Below the pieces are notes generated by a model, which was not told the origin of the DNA, did not search any database, and saw only the letters and a list, made by a program, of their open reading frames with translations. Shown piece by piece: positions 28,837 through 54,511 of a stretch of DNA of 64,000 nucleotides (position 1 is its first letter; every line of letters begins with the position of its first letter). The stretch comes from Candidatus Gastranaerophilales bacterium (GTDB lineage Bacteria > Cyanobacteriota > Vampirovibrionia > Gastranaerophilales > Gastranaerophilaceae). A program made the position numbers and the translations under genes. The stretch is from the NCBI GenBank assembly GCA_944323595.1, contig CALUTF010000001.1:62001-126000 (forward strand). Direction: 5' to 3'.

Positions 28837-31800
28837 ATGGCACAGAGAGTAGAAGATATTAACGGTTTGGTGAAACTTATCAGTGATGAAAAGGCTGAAA
28901 TTATCAACAAAGTCAACGAGCTTAATCAAAATGCGGAAATTAACGAAATTTTAACTGTGTCTTTACCACAAATTGAAGAATTGATTAACAGCAGATTCAG
29001 TACAACTCTTGAACAATTTTCTGCATTAAGCGGCTCTTTGAATTCGGTGATATCTGCCCAGAATTCTCTTTCTAAAACATCCGAACTTGAAGAATTTTTC
29101 TCATCTTTAAAAACAGATGTAAATAATTTTTATAACGAATTATTAAACCAGCATAATTTTTTGGAATCTGTCCGTCAAAAACTTAATGATATAAATGAGG
29201 ACAAATCTGACAGAGATGAAGTTATCAACAGCGTTATGACGATAAAGTCGGATATGGAAAACTTCAACCGTTCTCTGGAATCCTATGTTATTGATATCAA
29301 TTCCAATCTGCAAAACATCCTCAGACATATCCTTACAATGGATACAACCGAACAAAATGACATAATAAAAAGAGAACTTGAAAATATATTCCTGTCCTCT
29401 AATGCAATACTTTCATCTCTTGAAATTTCAGATAAAAAAGATGATGAAATGTACAATGTAATTTCTTCGGTTGAAAATAAAATTGATGAACTCATAGACA
29501 GAGAACCGGTAAATGCCGTAAAAGCAATCAAAGAATTTCAATCCGCAGTAGATGCACAGTTTAATAAAACTTCATCCGAAATTAATAAGATTGATGACAA
29601 TTTTAAATCACTTTCTTCATCAAATTTAGAACGGATTTTATCTGATATTGAATCTTCATCAGCCAAAATAGATGAATTAAATTCCGTTATTCAGGAAGAT
29701 TTTGCACAGAATTTGTCTTCAATAAAAAGTCTTGTCGAAAATATTTCAATAGATACGCCGTCAATAATACCTGAAAATCCGGCATTATCAGGAAAATTAG
29801 ACGACATATTAAAAGCTATAAATAATATTGAAATCCCGAACATCCCTGAATATGATATTGAACAAAATATAAATATTCTGAAAAACTCTCTCGGCTCAAT
29901 ATCAGAAATTTTGAATTCAATAAAATTATCCGATAACGGAGAAGCGGCAGAAAAACTTACTTCTTTGGAAGTTGCCTTATCACAGGGTATCAGCCACTAC
30001 GATGACAACATAATTGCACTGAATAATAATTTTAGTGAATACATCTCATCAATACAAAAAATCAGTGAATTAACAGACGAAAAACTGGATAATTCCATCT
30101 CAGGAATTTCGGAAGTTAAACTGGAAATAAAAGGACTGATTGAATCTCTTGAACAATTTAATTCAAAAGCTGATTTACGTCTTGAAACATCTTTAGAATC
30201 TTTCAAAGAAGTCGATGCCACTATCCGTGAAAAATTAGATGAAATAACAAACGCAATCAGAATAAGCAGCGATTCTACAACAAATAAATTTGAAAATATA
30301 AATTCAACAATTTCAACAAATCTTGAAACAGTAAATGAAAAACTTGACAATATTTCATCCTCAATTGATACCCGTCTGAACGGAGTAAACGAACTCCTGA
30401 CAGGAAGCACCGCCGGTCTTAACGAAACAATCAGCGGTCAAATAAGCGATGCAGTAAACATCATTAATCAAAATAATACCGAAGTTGGTGACAGATTGAA
30501 TAATCTTTCTACAGTAATGGAAGAAAGATTAACTAATGTAAGCGAGTCACTTAACCAAACTTCAACCGGAATGAATACTGTTATCGAAAATACATCAACA
30601 GCAATTCAGGATAATATCAATTTGATTAACGAAAATATTTCTTCAAGAAATGACAAAGTTAATGAAAAACTTGATAATATCACTTCTGCTATTGATGAAA
30701 AAATCAATAATGTAAATGATTCTCTTATTCAAACAACTGACGGGCTTCATACAATAGTAGAATCCACCGGAATGGAACTTCAGGGAAAAATTAATCTGGT
30801 TAATGAATATATTTTATTAAAAAGTCAGGAAGTACACGAAAAACTGGATAATTTTTCTTCCGCAATTGATAATAAATTAGGCAGCACTAATGAATCAATT
30901 GTACAAACAACTGACGGCATTCACTCTTTATTAGAAACAACAGGCACATCCATACAGGAAAATATCAATTTAGTTAACGAAAATATTTCTTCAAGAAACG
31001 ACAAGGTTAATGAAAAACTTGATAACATTTCTACTATTATTGATGAAAAAGTAAGTAATGTTAACGAATCACTATTACAAACAACAAATGGTATTCATTC
31101 ACTTTTAGAAACAACCAGCACTAGTGTACAGGAAAATATCAATTTGATTAACGAAAATATTTCTTCAAGAAATGATATAGTTAATGAAAAACTTGATAAT
31201 CTTTCATCTGTTGTCAATGAAAGACTAACTAACGTCAGTGAAACTCTTAACCAAACATCTGCCGGATTAAATTCTATTATCGAAAATTCTAATACAGATG
31301 TTCAGGAAAAAATAAACATTGTCAACGAAAACCTGACAACAACAGGCACACAAATCAATGAAAAATTAGACAATGTCACTACAATTGTAAGCGAAAATCT
31401 GAATAATGTAAGCGGTTTTCTCACACAAACATCGGAAAACCTTAATACTTATATTGAAAGTACAAACAGCGGTATTCAGGAAAAAATTAATATAGTTAAT
31501 GAAACTATATCAACTAACAGTGAAAAATTTAACGAAAAATTTGATAACTTCAGTGCCGATATGGATGCGAAATTAAATAGCGTAAGCGGTACATTGAACA
31601 TGACATCAAATGCAATAAATTCTGCAATATCCACTACAGAATCCCACCTTATAGATTCATTAAATACCGTAAGCAATACCATTGCATCAAGCAGAAATGA
31701 TTTAAGCCTTGAAATTCAGAATATAAACACATCCATTGCTGAAAATGTCGGAAATCTGATAAATCAAACTCTGGATAATAATTCTCAAAATTTAGACGAA

Positions 31801-34800
31801 AAACTCAATGCAATCAACACATCGTTAAAAGACCAGTTGCTGTCAATAGACGAATCTTTAAGCGTGAATACGGCAAATATGAACACCGTATCAGAAAATG
31901 TTAACAGTTCTATTCAAAACGGAATTAATGTCCTGACAGATGAACTGAAAACAAATTCTATAACCATAAATGAAAAACTAGATGATGTCACTAATGCAAT
32001 AAATTCACAATTGTCATCAGTTAATGATGCCCTTAATATGACAACGGAAACTTTCGGTTCCAAAGTTGAAAGTCTGACAGGAGATTTGCTTGAACAACTT
32101 AAAAATGCAAATGAAAAAGCAGGTTTAAATTCAACAGATATCAATGCAACAATAGCAGACCTGAATATTTCTATGAAAGATTGCATTGACAATATAAGTT
32201 CAACACTTTCCGCAAACACCGCCAATTTAAATGAAAAAACAGAAAATATAGAAGGCACCCTGAAAGAACAGTTAGGTACCGTCAATGCTGCACTTGCAGA
32301 TAATATAGAGCATATCAATCAGCTTCTCGGTGATGTAAATTCGACAGTTGAAAGCAAACTTTGTGAAATTAATTCAAATGTTGACGTTAACGTAAGTTCA
32401 ATAAAAGAATGCTTTGACTCTGCACTAAGTGCACTTGATATGGTGAGAACCGATATCATCGACAATCTGGCAGATAATAACGACAGTCTGACAGAACTTG
32501 TAAACAATACCATAAAAGAAATTAAAGAAATTAATACCGACACAGATGATGATATGCAAGACAAATTCACAAACCTGCGTGAACAGATTCTTGCAGTAAT
32601 ACTTGAACTGCAGGCCCGTCAGGAAGAAATGCTGAGTATCACAAAAAGAAGTGATGAAAGAAACCTGCAGGCACTTGATGATATTTCTATAACTATAAAA
32701 ACTGTTGAAAATAATCTTCAAACAACTACAAATGAATATAAACAATTGTTTGAAGTTAAAATGGCAGAATTAAAAAATGATGTTGATATAATACAACAGA
32801 TGCTCTCCGGCAGTGATGGAGAATTTAATGAAAAAATCTTCAACAAATTATTTACAGTTGAAGCACTTATAAATGAAGTTTCAGACAAGTATGAAGAGAA
32901 ACTGACAACACTCAGCAGCAGCATAACAAACTATATCAATAATGTTCAAAAAAATAATGAAGATGCTGAAATTAAATTAGGTAACTCTGTTTCCGAAATT
33001 GCAGAAATAAGAAATGACCTGCAAAAAATAGCAGATGAACTTAATACAGTAGAAAATAATCAGGATGTAAAATTCTACGAACTGACTGAAAATTTAAATT
33101 CAAAAATAGAAGATATCATCTTAAATATTGCAGGCTTAAAAGATATTGTTCAGGTAGGTGCAAAAGATGAACTTAAACAAAATTTATCAGAACTTGATTT
33201 AAAATTTGAACAGTTGTTCGCAAGCCTGAATAAAGTAAAAGAATTCACACCTGAAAATATCGACCAGTCATTCATTGAACTGGAAGAAAAATTAGGCGCA
33301 GTAAAACAGGAAATTAATCTTGTAAATACAGATATAATTGATGCGATAGACACAAAAACCTCATCAATAATAGAAAATTTCGCACCGATAAGAGAAGCGG
33401 TAACACAAATTTTAGACTTTGATTTCAGTCAAATTATTACAGAAGTAAAAACTCAGGTAGAACTTTCTTATCTGAATTTGACATCTGACCTGAACAGCAG
33501 TCTTACAATGAGTCAGGAAGCCGTTTCAAAACTGGAAACTGTATTCAAAGATGTCGCTAAAAAGATTATTGCAATAGATAATCAGATGACGGATTTTTCA
33601 AGAAATAACCTTGAAATTCTAAATCTCACAATAGAAAACATAAATAAAGTTGTAGAAAAAAATCTTGATGAAACAACAACTCTTTCTATTCAGTGGAAAA
33701 GCGGAATTGAAGCTATTGAAGAAAAAATTGCAGCGGCCAATGAACAATACGAATTATCCCTGAAGAATTACATGGATAATCTCAAAGAAGAACTGCAAAA
33801 AAATATAGATACCAACTTTGAAAACATCAAATCATTTGTTTCTGTAGTTGCAAACGAAGAAGATGCATTACATTCTATTGATATTCTGAAAGAAGAACTC
33901 TCAAACAGAATGGAAGTTCTTACAAATTCTTTCAGGGAAGAAATAGCGAAAACAAACGGTCAAACTGCTGATATGCAAAAATTCTCAACAGATATGAAAT
34001 CCTATATGGATAAACTTCTGGTGAATTTTGCAAAACATATTGAAACGTCAGTTAATGGAAATTCTCTGTCATCAGAACAAATTAATGAAGTTCTCTCAAA
34101 CTGGGCATCAAATCTGAATTCAGATATTATCAAAGAATTTGATTCAATATCCGACAAACTTTCAGATATACAAACAACTATCAACCTCAATGACACATCC
34201 GATATTTCAAAAAATATTCAGGAAACACTTGAAGCTCTACATGAAAAAGTTGATGTGCTTGCGATGGCTGACGACTCAAGCGAAGATATAATCTACGAAA
34301 TAGAAGATATCAAAAATATTCTGACAAAAGTAAGCGGAAAAAGCGAAGAGTTTAATGATCTTCTAAAAGAAATTAATAAAATAGAAGAAAGCTCATCAAA
34401 AAATGCAAATGACATAAAAGAATCCGTAATGTCAGCAATAATTGCCGTATTCGATCAAATTTCTTTTGTTGAAGAGTCTGAAGATATCAAAGATTTTGTA
34501 GAAGAAAAAACAGACGAAATTAACCAGAACCTCATAGAGGTCCGCAATCAATTAAAACAAATCGGCGTTGGAGATTCACAAGATTATTCCTATACACTTC
34601 AGGACGTTGAATCCGATATAGCAAAACTCCGTATGGTTTTGAATGAAATGTCACAATCCTCCTCAAGTGATGATGTACTGGAAATTTTAGACAATATCCA
34701 TAAAATTTCAGGCTCCATAGACGGATTACAGGCAAGCCTGACAACCGACCAGATTTATGACCTGAAGAATGATGTTGAACGTCTGAACGAAGATATTGTA

Positions 34801-35352
34801 AGTATCAGCACCAGAACCAACAAATTGCTTCTAACCTCCGACGAATCTTATAAAGCATTAAACAACGGTCTGGATGAATTCAGTAAAGTAATCCTGAAAC
34901 TTGAAGAGCGTATTAATATTCTTGATAATACCAAAAACTCCGAAAGAATAGAAAAGAAACTGGATAACGTAAATTCCATGGTATCGGTAATCGCAAATTC
35001 AAGCAAGGTAATGAATCAGGTAATGATGTACCTCGGCGAATGGATAGATACAACAAGCGAAAACATCGGAGCAATTTCGGAAAAAACATCTGAAATTGAT
35101 GAAATAAAAGAAATAATAACGGATTTACGCGATACAATTCCGTCAAAATCCGCAATATTAGATGCATTAGAAAACCGTTTTGAAGAGCAGCAGCAAAGAT
35201 TAGACAGGCTTGAAATGAAGTTTGACAGAGTGCTTGCACTACTGGAAGACAGAGATGACGCAAGACTGAACAAAAAATTCGAAAGAATTGAAAAACAAAT
35301 GACAAAATTAAGTATAAATATCGAAAAGCTGGCTTCATATGTTGACGAATAA
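28837..35352 (+). CDS. Giant coiled-coil protein with tandem 58-residue repeats
   Basis: A 2171-residue protein, the largest gene in the window, matching no family I recognise. It has no signal peptide, no membrane segment and almost no Cys, Pro or Trp; nearly the whole chain is Asn/Ser/Glu/Leu/Ile-rich amphipathic helix. Residues 594-941 hold six in-register repeats of exactly 58 residues, each with a core N-E-K-L-D-N and a Q-T-(T/S)-x-G segment. Degenerate copies precede (540-593) and related units follow. The last 60 residues are a charged coiled coil ending E-K-L-A-S-Y-V-D-E. A cytoplasmic filament, scaffold or spacer is the natural reading, as for other long bacterial coiled-coil proteins; this is inference. 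Its end overlaps the glcD-like start by 14 bp. Confidence 0.85.
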   Translation: MAQRVEDINGLVKLISDEKAEIINKVNELNQNAEINEILTVSLPQIEELINSRFSTTLEQFSALSGSLNSVISAQNSLSKTSELEEFFSSLKTDVNNFYNELLNQHNFLESVRQKLNDINEDKSDRDEVINSVMTIKSDMENFNRSLESYVIDINSNLQNILRHILTMDTTEQNDIIKRELENIFLSSNAILSSLEISDKKDDEMYNVISSVENKIDELIDREPVNAVKAIKEFQSAVDAQFNKTSSEINKIDDNFKSLSSSNLERILSDIESSSAKIDELNSVIQEDFAQNLSSIKSLVENISIDTPSIIPENPALSGKLDDILKAINNIEIPNIPEYDIEQNINILKNSLGSISEILNSIKLSDNGEAAEKLTSLEVALSQGISHYDDNIIALNNNFSEYISSIQKISELTDEKLDNSISGISEVKLEIKGLIESLEQFNSKADLRLETSLESFKEVDATIREKLDEITNAIRISSDSTTNKFENINSTISTNLETVNEKLDNISSSIDTRLNGVNELLTGSTAGLNETISGQISDAVNIINQNNTEVGDRLNNLSTVMEERLTNVSESLNQTSTGMNTVIENTSTAIQDNINLINENISSRNDKVNEKLDNITSAIDEKINNVNDSLIQTTDGLHTIVESTGMELQGKINLVNEYILLKSQEVHEKLDNFSSAIDNKLGSTNESIVQTTDGIHSLLETTGTSIQENINLVNENISSRNDKVNEKLDNISTIIDEKVSNVNESLLQTTNGIHSLLETTSTSVQENINLINENISSRNDIVNEKLDNLSSVVNERLTNVSETLNQTSAGLNSIIENSNTDVQEKINIVNENLTTTGTQINEKLDNVTTIVSENLNNVSGFLTQTSENLNTYIESTNSGIQEKINIVNETISTNSEKFNEKFDNFSADMDAKLNSVSGTLNMTSNAINSAISTTESHLIDSLNTVSNTIASSRNDLSLEIQNINTSIAENVGNLINQTLDNNSQNLDEKLNAINTSLKDQLLSIDESLSVNTANMNTVSENVNSSIQNGINVLTDELKTNSITINEKLDDVTNAINSQLSSVNDALNMTTETFGSKVESLTGDLLEQLKNANEKAGLNSTDINATIADLNISMKDCIDNISSTLSANTANLNEKTENIEGTLKEQLGTVNAALADNIEHINQLLGDVNSTVESKLCEINSNVDVNVSSIKECFDSALSALDMVRTDIIDNLADNNDSLTELVNNTIKEIKEINTDTDDDMQDKFTNLREQILAVILELQARQEEMLSITKRSDERNLQALDDISITIKTVENNLQTTTNEYKQLFEVKMAELKNDVDIIQQMLSGSDGEFNEKIFNKLFTVEALINEVSDKYEEKLTTLSSSITNYINNVQKNNEDAEIKLGNSVSEIAEIRNDLQKIADELNTVENNQDVKFYELTENLNSKIEDIILNIAGLKDIVQVGAKDELKQNLSELDLKFEQLFASLNKVKEFTPENIDQSFIELEEKLGAVKQEINLVNTDIIDAIDTKTSSIIENFAPIREAVTQILDFDFSQIITEVKTQVELSYLNLTSDLNSSLTMSQEAVSKLETVFKDVAKKIIAIDNQMTDFSRNNLEILNLTIENINKVVEKNLDETTTLSIQWKSGIEAIEEKIAAANEQYELSLKNYMDNLKEELQKNIDTNFENIKSFVSVVANEEDALHSIDILKEELSNRMEVLTNSFREEIAKTNGQTADMQKFSTDMKSYMDKLLVNFAKHIETSVNGNSLSSEQINEVLSNWASNLNSDIIKEFDSISDKLSDIQTTINLNDTSDISKNIQETLEALHEKVDVLAMADDSSEDIIYEIEDIKNILTKVSGKSEEFNDLLKEINKIEESSSKNANDIKESVMSAIIAVFDQISFVEESEDIKDFVEEKTDEINQNLIEVRNQLKQIGVGDSQDYSYTLQDVESDIAKLRMVLNEMSQSSSSDDVLEILDNIHKISGSIDGLQASLTTDQIYDLKNDVERLNEDIVSISTRTNKLLLTSDESYKALNNGLDEFSKVILKLEERINILDNTKNSERIEKKLDNVNSMVSVIANSSKVMNQVMMYLGEWIDTTSENIGAISEKTSEIDEIKEIITDLRDTIPSKSAILDALENRFEEQQQRLDRLEMKFDRVLALLEDRDDARLNKKFERIEKQMTKLSINIEKLASYVDE
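30616..31659 (+). repeat. Six tandem 174-bp (58-codon) repeats inside the coiled-coil gene
   Basis: Unit starts at 30616, 30790, 30964, 31138, 31312 and 31486, each 174 bp. Units 1, 3 and 4 share long identical DNA blocks (for example AATATTTCTTCAAGAAATGA), while units 5 and 6 have drifted, so the array shows recent as well as old duplication. Confidence 0.85.
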
Positions 35353-49921: not shown

Positions 49922-50003
49922 TAAGAAAAACGTTTATATTTCTTAAAAATTCTTCTGTAAGGTGTTCACAAAACAACTGTACTGGAGTACAATAAATAAC
50001 ATC

Positions 50004-50825
50004 ATGAGTGTTGATGAAAAACTATATTCTGACATCCCTCCTACAAAGTTGAGGAATAAAGAGGAGAAATTTAAACCGGCAAAGACAAACAAATTTTGGC
50101 TTATGGTAGCAAGTTTGTTCTTTTTTAACATGCTTCAGAACCGTTTTTTCGCATTCCGGTATGCAGGCGATGAAAATTTCTTTGAACGGGATACTACCGC
50201 TCCGACAATTTTGTTTGCTCCGCATTGTAACTGGTGGGATGGAATAGTTCTTTACAACATTTCACACAGGATTTGCCGTAAAGAAATACGTCTGATGGTA
50301 GAAGAATTAAACAGATTTCCATTATTAAGACGCGGCGGTGCGTATTCTGTATGTAAAAAATCAGCACAATCTTCAATGAAAGCATTAAAGTATTCCGTTG
50401 ATGTTATAGGGAATTTAAATAATTTGCTTTTCATATTCCCGCAAGGAATAATCCGTCCTCCTCATTACAGACCTATAGAATTTCAAACAGGTCTGGCATA
50501 TATTGCGCAGAATGCAGTTAAAAAATACGGAAAAGTCAATCTTATTCCTGTAGGTATAGATTATACGTTTTTCCGTGATAACCGTCCTGAGGTTATGGTT
50601 AAATTCGGTGAAACAATTAAACTTACAGATGCAACTGTTAATAGAAAAGAATATACAGATTTTCTTGCACACAGCCTGGAAAATGTCTGTGACAGCCTTG
50701 CAGATGACATTTCTCACGGACACATTGACGATTATAAGATACTTTTCAAACAACACTTGAAATGGTACAGACGAATAGAACAACGGCTTAAACGTATTGA
50801 CCTGCCGCCTGTATCAGGAGTTTAA
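50004..50825 (+). CDS. PlsC-like 1-acyl-glycerol-3-phosphate acyltransferase
   Basis: A 273-residue LPLAT-family acyltransferase. The H-x4-D motif is A-P-H-C-N-W-W-D (about 66-73), followed by an F-P-Q-G element standing in for F-P-E-G. One hydrophobic stretch near the start (about 30-48) would tether it to the inner membrane. It probably acylates lysophosphatidate or a related lipid. The frame is open from GTG 49962, but that codon has no SD; ATG 50004 fits the family better. A weak TACAAT (49988-49993) lies 10 nt before it. A bidirectional terminator follows. Confidence 0.8.
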   Translation: MSVDEKLYSDIPPTKLRNKEEKFKPAKTNKFWLMVASLFFFNMLQNRFFAFRYAGDENFFERDTTAPTILFAPHCNWWDGIVLYNISHRICRKEIRLMVEELNRFPLLRRGGAYSVCKKSAQSSMKALKYSVDVIGNLNNLLFIFPQGIIRPPHYRPIEFQTGLAYIAQNAVKKYGKVNLIPVGIDYTFFRDNRPEVMVKFGETIKLTDATVNRKEYTDFLAHSLENVCDSLADDISHGHIDDYKILFKQHLKWYRRIEQRLKRIDLPPVSGV

Positions 50826-50868: not shown

Positions 50869-52578
50869 TTATGCTTGATATCGTTTAAATGATTTTTCAA
50901 TGTTTTTAGAGATAACCGATTTAACCGTATCGTATTCTGTCGTGAGTGAAGAAATTTCAGTATCAAGGTTTTTCATCTTCATATCAATAGTTTCTTCTTT
51001 AGAATTAATTTTTTGTTTTTCGGTTTGATACTTAGCTTCCGCAAGAGCAATTGCGTCTTCATCCGGAATTTCTTTGACATAAGAATTCGTACTGTAATTG
51101 CCCTGATAATAATACCCGTCATCGTCCAGAGTCGTCATATACATCATACCGTTAGCAAGCATTTCCTGAATATATTCATTGTCATGAACAAGTGATTCAC
51201 CGTTTTTATCAACGCCGCTTTCAACCCATCCTCTCTGACATAACTGGTTGAATAATGCATCATAGAATTGTGATGCTGCAAGGTTTGCTGATGAATATTC
51301 TGAACCTACTTTGAAAGTATAGAGATAATCATCATCCGATGTAACAAGGTTTGAATTAGCTTTACTGTTTGCACCTGTTAATACATTATAATCACTTTCA
51401 AGATTTGCTAAGCTATCAGCAAAGAATGTTAAGTATACATCAACAACGTTATTCAAATTTATACCAACGCATGGATCGCCTTGTCCCCATAAACCGTGCC
51501 AAGCACCACCGTGTTGTCTTGAAATTACAAAGCCTAAATCTGTATCGTTGTTTGTAAAATAATTTAAGACTTTATCTCTGTTATCCTCGTGGTCTTTATC
51601 TTTACCAATTACGTGTGAATTGGTATATTGCAAGTTGCCATTATTATCAACAATTGATTCACCAAAGTAAAGCATTGTCTCTGTTAATGCATAATCTAAT
51701 GCTGCAGCCTGATCTGCGTCACCAATATCTAAAACTGTTAGTAATTGTTCATTTAACCAGGGAACTAATACTTCTTCTAAATATTGTGCAAATTGTTTAG
51801 CAGCTGTTTCAGCCTGGTCGTAATTATCAGGGTTATCGCCATAACCCCACCATATATAATCAGTATCACCTAATAAATCATTAATAGTTATATCTAATTC
51901 TTGGACAGTTTCAGCCCCACGAGTTCCATTACCATTTTCATCTCTGGTTACAGTCGAAATTTGTGACCCTTTACCATCACCTTGTGCTTCACCCATTGTC
52001 CCTGGATCGAAGTTAGGTATAGAAAGTGTTGATGTACTTACTTCTGCCAATCTGTCTTTCAATGCATCTAAGTTACCTTGTTCTGTTATTATTCTTTCAC
52101 TAGGTGAAGTACCAACACCAACAGTCGGATCGTAAGTGATATTTTTTAAACTTTCTGCCAGAGTCTTAGAAATAATACCCTGATCGCCTAACGCATCAAG
52201 AAATGCATTACGTATAGCCTCAGATGGGAATCCGTTGATACCTTCCTGAGGAATACCTGCAGCTCTTGCTGCTGCTGCATATTTTGCGTCCAGCACAACT
52301 CTGCCTTCTGCGTTTGTAAGCATTATCGGTACATTGTTATTCAAAATAGACGGTGTCATCATTAAGCTGTATGACAAAGGTGTTGATGTATCACCTGTTC
52401 CGTAAAAATCATAAACTAATTTTGTCTTTGTCAGAGAATTTTGATATTCGTTGGAAAGAGTGGTCATATCACGTGACAACGCAATTTTCTGATGCGACAA
52501 TCTCATTGATTGATATTCGCAATCAGCCTTTCTCGTTGTTATGGTTAATAATCTAGCTTGTGATGCCGCTAATCCCAT
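50869..52578 (-). CDS. Uncharacterised 'GLAASQARLL' protein, filament-subunit-like layout
   Basis: A 569-residue protein. The N-terminus G-L-A-A-S-Q-A-R-L-L-T-I-T, with a following helix to about residue 50, and the C-terminal 85 residues (ending S-F-K-R-Y-Q-A) are amphipathic helix, while the 400-residue middle is Gly/Asn/Asp/Thr-rich and globular. From memory this N-terminus recurs on many proteins of Gastranaerophilales and related phyla, without assigned function. Conserved helical ends around a variable centre is the plan of flagellin, hook-associated and needle-type subunits; no homology to these was seen. No signal peptide. SD AAAGGA before ATG. Isolated gene. Confidence 0.75.
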   Translation of the reverse strand: MGLAASQARLLTITTRKADCEYQSMRLSHQKIALSRDMTTLSNEYQNSLTKTKLVYDFYGTGDTSTPLSYSLMMTPSILNNNVPIMLTNAEGRVVLDAKYAAAARAAGIPQEGINGFPSEAIRNAFLDALGDQGIISKTLAESLKNITYDPTVGVGTSPSERIITEQGNLDALKDRLAEVSTSTLSIPNFDPGTMGEAQGDGKGSQISTVTRDENGNGTRGAETVQELDITINDLLGDTDYIWWGYGDNPDNYDQAETAAKQFAQYLEEVLVPWLNEQLLTVLDIGDADQAAALDYALTETMLYFGESIVDNNGNLQYTNSHVIGKDKDHEDNRDKVLNYFTNNDTDLGFVISRQHGGAWHGLWGQGDPCVGINLNNVVDVYLTFFADSLANLESDYNVLTGANSKANSNLVTSDDDYLYTFKVGSEYSSANLAASQFYDALFNQLCQRGWVESGVDKNGESLVHDNEYIQEMLANGMMYMTTLDDDGYYYQGNYSTNSYVKEIPDEDAIALAEAKYQTEKQKINSKEETIDMKMKNLDTEISSLTTEYDTVKSVISKNIEKSFKRYQA

Positions 52579-52876: not shown

Positions 52877-54511
52877 ATGAGTAACTTACAATTTCAAAAT
52901 GACTTAGACAAGCTGATAGACATTTTACCCGACAAAATCAGACGACAGGTTACGTATGAGAAAATGGAAGATGTCATAGAGATAGTACTTGATATCGGCA
53001 GACTTCCTGAAATACGGCACTCTTCAGGTAAAATAGAATATTTTGATTGTGACGCGGTTACTTATGAAGACATAGAATATATAACAAATAATATACAAGA
53101 ATTTACCTCCGATAATCGTTCAGGCATCCCGGGAACTCTCCACAGAATAAGCGCAATAAGAAACAGACAGGGCAAAATTGTAGGTCTGACCTGCAGAATA
53201 GGCAGGGTTGTAACAGGTACTATCGCCTGTATAAAAGATTTTTGTATGCAGAATAAAAGTATACTGTTTTTAGGACGTCCGGGGGTTGGTAAAACTACTA
53301 AATTAAGAGAAATCTCAAGGCTTGTTGCAGATGAATTAGGAAAACGTGTAGTTGTCGTGGATACGTCAAATGAAATTGCAGGCGATGGAGATACCCCGCA
53401 TCCGGCAATAGGTCATGCCCGCCGTATGCAGGTAAGACAACCGGAATTTCAAAAAGACATCATGATAGAAGCAGTAGAAAACCATACTCCGGAAGTTATT
53501 GTAGTTGATGAAATCGGGACTGAAGCGGAAGCACAGGCTGCAAGAACCATTGCAGAACGCGGGGTTATGCTTATTGCAACTGCCCACGGCAACAGCCTTG
53601 AAAGCTTAATCAAAAACCCGACACTTTCGGATTTGGTCGGCGGTATTCAATCTGTAACTCTGGGGGATGACGAAGCAAAACGCAGAGCATCTCAAAAAAC
53701 TGTTCTGGAACGTGAAAAACAACCGACATTTGATATTGTAATAGAAATTCTGGACAGAAATACTCTTGCTGTATACAAAGATACAGCAGAAGCCGTTGAC
53801 TATATTCTACGCGGCTGGCCTATAAGACCGGAAATAAGAAAAGTTGACAAAACATACGATACACAACAGGCAGCAGCAGAATCATCAACAAAAAATGAAA
53901 CACAGGCTACGCAGGAACACCCTATTGTTGAGAAAATTAATGAACTTGAACAAAAAATCAGTCCTGCTGACAGTTTAAAATTCAGTTTTTCAAGACAGCA
54001 ATACGTTGATAATGTGAAAAAATTCAAAAAAATATACCTGTATGCAGTTTCCCGCAGTATTGTGGAAAAAGTTATAGAACGTCTTGACTTAAATGCAGAA
54101 ATTACGCGTAATATTGATGATGCCGATATAGTACTTGCACACAAGAATTTTGCTAAAGGCGGTGCTAAAATATTGAGTACAGCTAACGATTACAGACTGC
54201 AAATATTTTTTATAAAAACAAATTCAATGGCTCAAATACAAAAAGTTTTGAAAGAAGCACTCGATATTGTAGAATCTTCTGAAACACTATGCGGGTATTA
54301 TGACGATGCAGAACGTGCGCTGGATGAAGCAAAAGCAGCTATCAATAAAATCCTTGCAGGCGCGGAACACGTAGAATTACAGCCGCAAAACCAGCATATA
54401 AGAAAATTACAGCACGAACTGGTTGAGCAGCACAATCTTGAAAGTAAATCCGTTGGTGAAGGTGACCAGCGTCATCTGCGTATTGTCGGCGGCAAAGACT
54501 TTAAAAAATAA
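52877..54511 (+). CDS. Ycf45/SpoIIIAA-like AAA ATPase with R3H domain
   Basis: A 544-residue protein. N-terminal domain (1-125), then an ATPase core with Walker A G-R-P-G-V-G-K-T-T (about 133-141), V-V-D-T-S-N-E-I-A-G, and Walker B V-I-V-V-D-E-I-G-T (about 206-214), as in SpoIIIAA and chloroplast Ycf45. The insert about 330-420 is variable. The C-terminus has an R3H-type nucleic-acid binding motif, R-K-L-Q-H-E-L-V-E-Q-H-N-L near 507 with R-H-L-R-I. This layout is a cyanobacterial and plastid hallmark and the main taxonomic clue here. Function unproven; RNA or DNA binding is likely. Promoter at 52777. Confidence 0.88.
   Translation: MSNLQFQNDLDKLIDILPDKIRRQVTYEKMEDVIEIVLDIGRLPEIRHSSGKIEYFDCDAVTYEDIEYITNNIQEFTSDNRSGIPGTLHRISAIRNRQGKIVGLTCRIGRVVTGTIACIKDFCMQNKSILFLGRPGVGKTTKLREISRLVADELGKRVVVVDTSNEIAGDGDTPHPAIGHARRMQVRQPEFQKDIMIEAVENHTPEVIVVDEIGTEAEAQAARTIAERGVMLIATAHGNSLESLIKNPTLSDLVGGIQSVTLGDDEAKRRASQKTVLEREKQPTFDIVIEILDRNTLAVYKDTAEAVDYILRGWPIRPEIRKVDKTYDTQQAAAESSTKNETQATQEHPIVEKINELEQKISPADSLKFSFSRQQYVDNVKKFKKIYLYAVSRSIVEKVIERLDLNAEITRNIDDADIVLAHKNFAKGGAKILSTANDYRLQIFFIKTNSMAQIQKVLKEALDIVESSETLCGYYDDAERALDEAKAAINKILAGAEHVELQPQNQHIRKLQHELVEQHNLESKSVGEGDQRHLRIVGGKDFKK

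Follow-up and report, generated by a model that had tools for sequence, protein, structure and literature searches.

The DNA analyzed here, which we call the window, is a stretch of 64,000 nucleotides (nt) from the genome of a Candidatus Gastranaerophilales bacterium (GenBank assembly GCA_944323595.1, contig CALUTF010000001.1, positions 62,001 to 126,000). At positions 50869–52578 its minus strand contains a gene for a member of the GLAASQAR family of proteins, which we propose, from profile searches, conservation and gene context, to be an axial subunit (shaft, filament or tip) exported by a type III system. The existence of its open reading frame (ORF) was verified; it starts with ATG and encodes 569 amino acids (aa), of which the first are MGLAASQARLLTITTRKADCEY and the last form a long charged helix. 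Three parts of the protein matter to the argument. According to profile and structural model, an N-terminal helix (residues 2–49; 52432–52575, minus strand) carries the invariant motif MG[LM]AASQAR..T.R....E and is the proposed export signal and assembly helix. A C-terminal helix (residues 507–568; 50875–51060, minus strand) carries the motif LTTEYDTVK..I.KN.EK.F and is modeled as the partner of the N-terminal helix. Between the two lies a hypervariable center (residues 191–365; 51484–52008, minus strand), which we propose to be a surface-exposed insert.

We quantified the contrast between ends and center by comparing the window protein with 51 relatives. Mean identity to the window protein is 67.6% across residues 1–55 and 65.0% across residues 485–569, versus 14.4% across residues 191–365, where gaps make up 17.6%. 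An initial annotation of the window, made from the sequence alone, had described conserved helical ends around a variable middle, and the description holds. The seven complete paralogues of the source genome behave in the same way, with identities of 48% over the first 50 residues, 23.5% over the middle and 45% over the last 60. An AlphaFold2 model built from 52 sequences (mean predicted local distance difference test score, or pLDDT, 84.5; predicted template modeling score, or pTM, 0.52) places helices at residues 2–49 and 507–568 and pairs these terminal helices into a hairpin. The center was also said to be rich in Gly and Asn, of which a mild excess survives: 9.1% Gly and 8.4% Asn, compared with 5.3 ± 1.8% and 5.9 ± 2.0% among the window's ORFs of at least 200 aa. 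The window protein has no transmembrane-like segment (the maximum Kyte-Doolittle 19-mer is 1.09), which fits the expectation for a type III substrate. The missing hydrophobic segment argues against a membrane protein or a Sec-type surface protein.

The family is large, and in the genomes sampled it is restricted to the order Gastranaerophilales. We built separate profiles for the N-terminal end (A2, 65 positions) and the C-terminal end (A1, 71 positions), and each of them matched all 146 sampled genomes of the order with similar copy numbers. The N-terminal end occurs in 2–15 copies per genome, the exception being genome G019 with a single weak copy, so that the annotation was correct in placing this motif on many proteins of the lineage. 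Within a phylum-wide sample of 292 genomes, the N-terminal profile matched 131, every one of them Gastranaerophilales, and had no match outside the order. The source genome has 10 N-terminal and 11 C-terminal matches, comprising seven complete ORFs and others cut by contig ends, and we estimate that it contains about 12–14 paralogues of the window gene. The relatives in named records are metagenome-assembled genomes, many of them labeled Candidatus Gastranaerophilales, Melainabacteria or Cyanobacteria, and they come from gut and rumen samples where a source is stated.

The two ends occur together. Among the fetched loci, 124 distinct ORFs carry both ends, a count that includes a few truncated duplicates of one gene and three copies of the small protein described below. 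ORFs with one end are mostly incomplete: 16 of 17 with the N-terminal end alone, and all long ones with the C-terminal end alone, run into the end of a contig or locus. The sole complete exception is a 704-aa ORF (L097:1765–3876) that has the N-terminal end and lacks the C-terminal one, either through a frameshift or as a real variant. Searches of Pfam, NCBIfam and PDB sequences with the window protein, its 51 relatives and the end profiles returned chance-level matches only, and no profile linked the protein to an enzyme family. Neither of the two outcomes that the annotation had named as refuting it, a link to an enzyme family or ends occurring apart, was thus observed. Because there is no family match and the center is the most variable part, an enzymatic function is not favored.

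A protein of 108–111 aa, present in 146 of 146 genomes of the order and encoded in the export operon described below, consists of both family ends without a middle; in genome G001 it reads MGLIASQIRLLYLNQQRLDLEYK ... KMIEAEYQSCQGVLDKNIQKSFAY. Its first 56 residues align to the N-terminal profile (hhalign E 3.4e-6, probability 88), its residues 60–106 align to the C-terminal profile (E 2.1e-8, probability 95), and three copies match both profiles by hmmsearch. The small hairpin is thus homologous to both ends, and the long family proteins therefore resemble a version of it in which an extra domain separates the two helices. It has no sequence match (P0002, alignment A4) to the needle SctF or inner-rod SctI families. 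A middle-less hairpin encoded beside insert-bearing ones would illustrate, in a clean natural case, how a minimal subunit can give rise to flagellin-like proteins.

Export genes in the order fall into two sets. All 146 genomes have FlhA-type matches, and the full-length protein occurs in two score classes: one of about 720–735 bits in nearly all genomes, including the source genome, and a flagellar class of about 870 bits in some genera only (genomes G045 and G122 have a weak match only). Non-flagellated genomes contain one FliP of about 230 bits, to which flagellated genomes add a second of about 260–277 bits; FliI follows the same one-versus-two split (G000:C14 scores 545 bits, above the family cut-off). 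Rod-type proteins with Flg_bbr_C number two to three in non-flagellated genomes versus about seven in flagellated ones. Flagellin itself is found in 54 of the 146 genomes and in none of the source genome's genus, and a search of the source genome with PF00669 gave no match. In G012, a relative from another family, two FlgF/G-type proteins, FlgB, FlgC and a lytic transglycosylase lie upstream of FliE-FliF-FliH-FlhA, and this cluster is divergent from the flagellar fliPQR-flhB-flhA cluster. From the two FlhA classes, the split in FliP and FliI, the patchiness of flagellin and the layout in G012 we therefore conclude, on sequence grounds, that a second export system derived from the flagellum exists in the order; it is the only one found in the source genome.

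The composition of this second system agrees with a non-flagellar type III machine. It has its own export gate and ATPase, from the FlhA, FliP and FliI families, without flagellin, together with the ring and stator genes SctJ/FliF, SctL/FliH and SctQ/FliN. In the source genome FliF, FliE, FliH and FlhA were identified by Pfam (YscJ_FliF at 2.2e-35, FliH at 2.2e-28), and the FliN-type component was found in relative L093 (FliMN_C at 1.6e-20). The source genome's FlhA and FliF are nearer to the flagellar models than to those of SctV and SctJ, yet they score under both NCBIfam equivalog cut-offs.

GLAASQAR genes are linked to these export genes in at least three separate contexts. In the first, an operon runs in the order GLAASQAR member, 272-aa protein, 90-aa protein, small hairpin, FliE, FliF, FliG-like protein, FliH and FlhA, with a few unrelated genes intervening between the small hairpin and FliE. 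This order is seen in G018, G025, G040, G062, G064, G001 and the source genome, where it extends over two contigs; the 340–365-aa FliG-like protein is named by position, and Pfam gives it a weak MgtE_N match only. Among the 38 non-flagellated genomes with listed positions and both genes on the same contig, the small hairpin precedes FlhA in 37, at a distance of 7–14 kb and in the same orientation. The second context concerns orthologues of the window gene itself, recognized by the same plsC-type acyltransferase on their 3′ side (49962–50825, plus strand, in the window; named by family match), which is kept beside those orthologues that flank the FliOPQR cluster and serves as a synteny marker, not as a proposed part of the machine. 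In six relatives (L083, L088, L089, L090, L093 and L094) the orthologue lies about 200 bp from, and divergent to, a cluster of FliN-like, FliO, FliP, FliQ, a 129-aa protein and FliR; in L132 the same cluster adjoins an N-terminal family piece at a contig end. The window has at that place a gene for an R3H/SpoIIIAA-like ATPase (52877–54511, plus strand; family match), which also adjoins the orthologue in L084 and L087. In L085, the orthologue is 3.6 kb from FliE-FliF-FliG-like-FliH-FlhA. Five additional genomes have a family member about 1.8 kb away from FliP, and in four a member is located about 2 kb from FliI.

Taken together, the gene linkage and the anatomy of a hairpin with an insert are best explained by an exported axial subunit. 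We consider it probable that about a dozen paralogues, the window protein among them, are axial substrates (shaft, filament or tip) of a type III system that is found throughout the order and derives from the flagellum without being one. According to this mechanism, the N-terminal helix would carry the export signal and the substrate would pass through the FlhA/FliPQR gate, after which its N- and C-terminal helices would pair into one hairpin. The hairpins would then pack around a channel and so build a hollow axis, in the manner of the D0/D1 helices of flagellin, FlgL and FliD, with the inserted middle domain displayed outside, where it would diversify and might contact the host or neighboring cells. 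The middle-less hairpin would be the core shaft subunit, and the long members may be part of the shaft itself, its decoration or, one at a time, its cap. With so many paralogues and such unrelated middles, the displayed domain is probably subject to diversifying pressure. The initial annotation had likened the protein to self-assembling secreted subunits of an undescribed structure; the linkage to an export apparatus and the structural likeness support that comparison, and from them we infer secretion and assembly. We advance more tentatively, and at somewhat less than an even chance, the broader proposal that Gastranaerophilales universally possess an unrecognized type III nanomachine, distinct from their patchy flagella, in which a shaft of minimal hairpins is dressed with a large, recombining, insert-bearing repertoire to provide these gut relatives of Cyanobacteria with a variable appendage for contact or delivery.

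The predicted structures speak for this interpretation, though not decisively, and several other observations weigh against it. By VIA-align, the paired ends of the window model (residues 1..559) superpose on the flagellin filament 9n8h (Z 9.4, root-mean-square deviation (rmsd) 1.9, 106 residues aligned), and the coiled coil of seryl-tRNA synthetase 6x94 scores equally (Z 9.4, rmsd 1.5, 82 aligned); the hairpin is therefore present in the window model but not diagnostic. A short family member (L084:15607–16671), modeled from four sequences (pLDDT 81.8, pTM 0.44), is predicted as a helix, a beta-rich middle and a helix. About half of the 50 matches listed for it are FliD, flagellin, FlgL, FlgK, hook or rod proteins, including the flagellar cap-filament complex 9gnz (Z 10.0, rmsd 3.7, 117 aligned), 3k8v (Z 8.8, rmsd 2.0, 126 aligned) and 5yti (Z 8.2, rmsd 2.4, 119 aligned), but common helix hairpins can attain Z values of this size through shared arrangement. 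Foldseek gave neither model a match at E ≤ 0.001, its top hit to the short member being a flagellar filament at E 5.8e-3, and it assigned no known fold to the middle domain as part of the whole-protein models. The end helices, which the annotation had called amphipathic, have a hydrophobic moment at 100 degrees no higher than that of shuffled sequences (p about 0.25). The window gene's own neighbors in the window include no export genes, and the linkage counts come from related genomes and are thus not independent events. No outer-membrane exit, either a secretin or a ring, was identified, and no search was aimed at an outer-membrane pore. A sister order of the class has full-length FlhA with a similar score (about 740 bits) in another gene context (L167:13398–15488, L168:14087–16078 and L169:2833–4923), and these three loci contain no recognizable GLAASQAR protein or small hairpin.

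The same evidence can be read in other ways, of which the main rival is that the proteins are effectors of the same system, with the conserved ends acting as a targeting and chaperone-binding hairpin and the variable middles as cargo for host, protist or bacterial cells. Effectors would share the linkage to export genes, would explain why there are usually 2–15 copies per genome with unrelated middles, and would agree with the prediction of much of the middle as a folded domain. An effector signal, however, does not require the N-terminal helix to have a conserved C-terminal partner, an arrangement typical of polymerizing axial proteins. A middle-less hairpin sits in the operon, and the middles match no enzyme or toxin family in general family libraries (no effector library was searched). 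We regard an effector role as unlikely.

A nearer relation of the axial interpretation, and almost a sub-case of it, would have the long proteins act at the tip or as translocators: a single kind would cap the small-hairpin shaft at any one time, so that the repertoire sets target specificity. The many alternative members per genome, versus a conserved small-hairpin gene in the operon, fit this arrangement, as do weak matches of the window model to the needle-tip proteins IpaD (Z 5.6) and SipD (Z 4.3) and the short member's resemblance to 9gnz. These Z values are in the generic range, however, and nothing fixes the stoichiometry; we consider this reading quite unlikely. It is very improbable that the window protein is a coiled-coil protein of the cytoplasm or periplasm that has nothing to do with secretion and is located near export genes by chance: its neighbors in the window and at most of the scattered copies are housekeeping genes, but separate export loci repeatedly show the linkage, and the operon's hairpin is akin to both ends.

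An exported axial subunit invites comparison with two known classes of proteins. Like the family, the flagellar axial proteins (FliC, FlgK/FlgL, FliD, FlgE and the rod proteins FlgB/C/F/G) have conserved terminal helices around a variable or inserted middle; the family's model helices pair and superpose on theirs (Z 8–9.4, tied by unrelated hairpins), and its genes likewise lie beside a flagellum-type export gate. Unlike them, the window protein and its 51 relatives have no Flagellin_N, Flagellin_C or other Flg match in Pfam, the motif MG[LM]AASQAR has no sequence match to these proteins, and the source genome has no flagellin. Injectisomes (needle SctF, tip proteins and the EspA filament) share export gate, ATPase and ring genes without flagellin, and a small helix-hairpin protein of about 110 aa plus larger members with the same ends. 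They differ in that the FlhA and FliF described here are closer to flagellar models, though under both equivalog cut-offs, in that no SctF match was found, and in that FlgB/FlgC/FlgF-type rod proteins are retained beside the Gastranaerophilales system in a relative. The family would work like the axial proteins of flagella or injectisomes, but because these sequence tests gave no match, we file it neither as flagellin nor as needle protein.

Parts of this system have probably been seen before under another name. Each of the four genomes examined by Di Rienzi et al. 2013 (PMC3787301) was reported to have flagellar genes, with two flhA genes in ACD20, a flgG-flgG-flgC-fliF-fliH-flhA-fliI set common to the four, and MEL.A1 as the only one of them without a full flagellum; later work speaks of partial flagellar sets in gut Melainabacteria (PMC5877343). 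These 'partial flagella' genes are probably those of the second export system; they were read in PMC3787301 as flagellar, and the papers found describe neither the GLAASQAR family nor a separate order-wide system. A literature search, which is weak evidence because subscription papers and preprints were mostly outside its coverage, found no type III secretion system reported for Melainabacteria, Gastranaerophilales or Vampirovibrionia and, with the same coverage, no naming of the family in the Gastranaerophilales group. What the family belongs to would then be new: an axial-like family tied to a second, non-flagellar export machine that was earlier taken for leftover flagella. Gastranaerophilales inhabit human and animal guts, and flagellar gene sets, whether complete or 'partial', have led to their being called flagellated. 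If some of these genes instead encode a dedicated non-flagellar export machine with an expanded axial-protein family of its own, the order owns a cell-surface device that has gone unstudied and that may act on neighbors such as host, protist or bacterial cells. The finding makes both motility claims and type III secretion in the order directly testable.

Some further observations concern the family and its machine. At L163:2677–6538 and L164:2200–6195, family members lie head to head, and their coding ends form inverted repeats around differing middles (N-terminal ends 216–417 nt, 90–97%; C-terminal ends 241–511 nt, 88–94%); such pairs might undergo inversion or gene conversion, which would vary the repertoire. 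Several members are adjoined by a gene resembling lytic transglycosylases in sequence (L163:6599–7168, L164:1582–2151 and L015:825–1517); the same is true of many type III systems that have to cut through peptidoglycan. Between FliQ and FliR of the second export cluster, a 122–130-aa protein (L093:1915–2298, 128 aa, with counterparts in L083, L088–L090, L094 and L132) has a weak, below-cut-off match to a secretin-type N-domain (PF13629) and may couple to an outer-membrane pore. FlhA-family matches that cover the C-terminal half only, in 400–440-aa ORFs (G148:C80, G157:C37 and C62; compare the weak matches in G045 and G122), suggest that the phylum has a separate protein with an FlhA-like cytoplasmic domain. 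Elsewhere in the window, a 2171-aa ORF (28837–35352, plus strand) with coiled-coil-like repeats matches an Apolipoprotein model (E 3e-40) and, weakly, LXG; its size and make-up are reminiscent of a tape-measure or surface protein.
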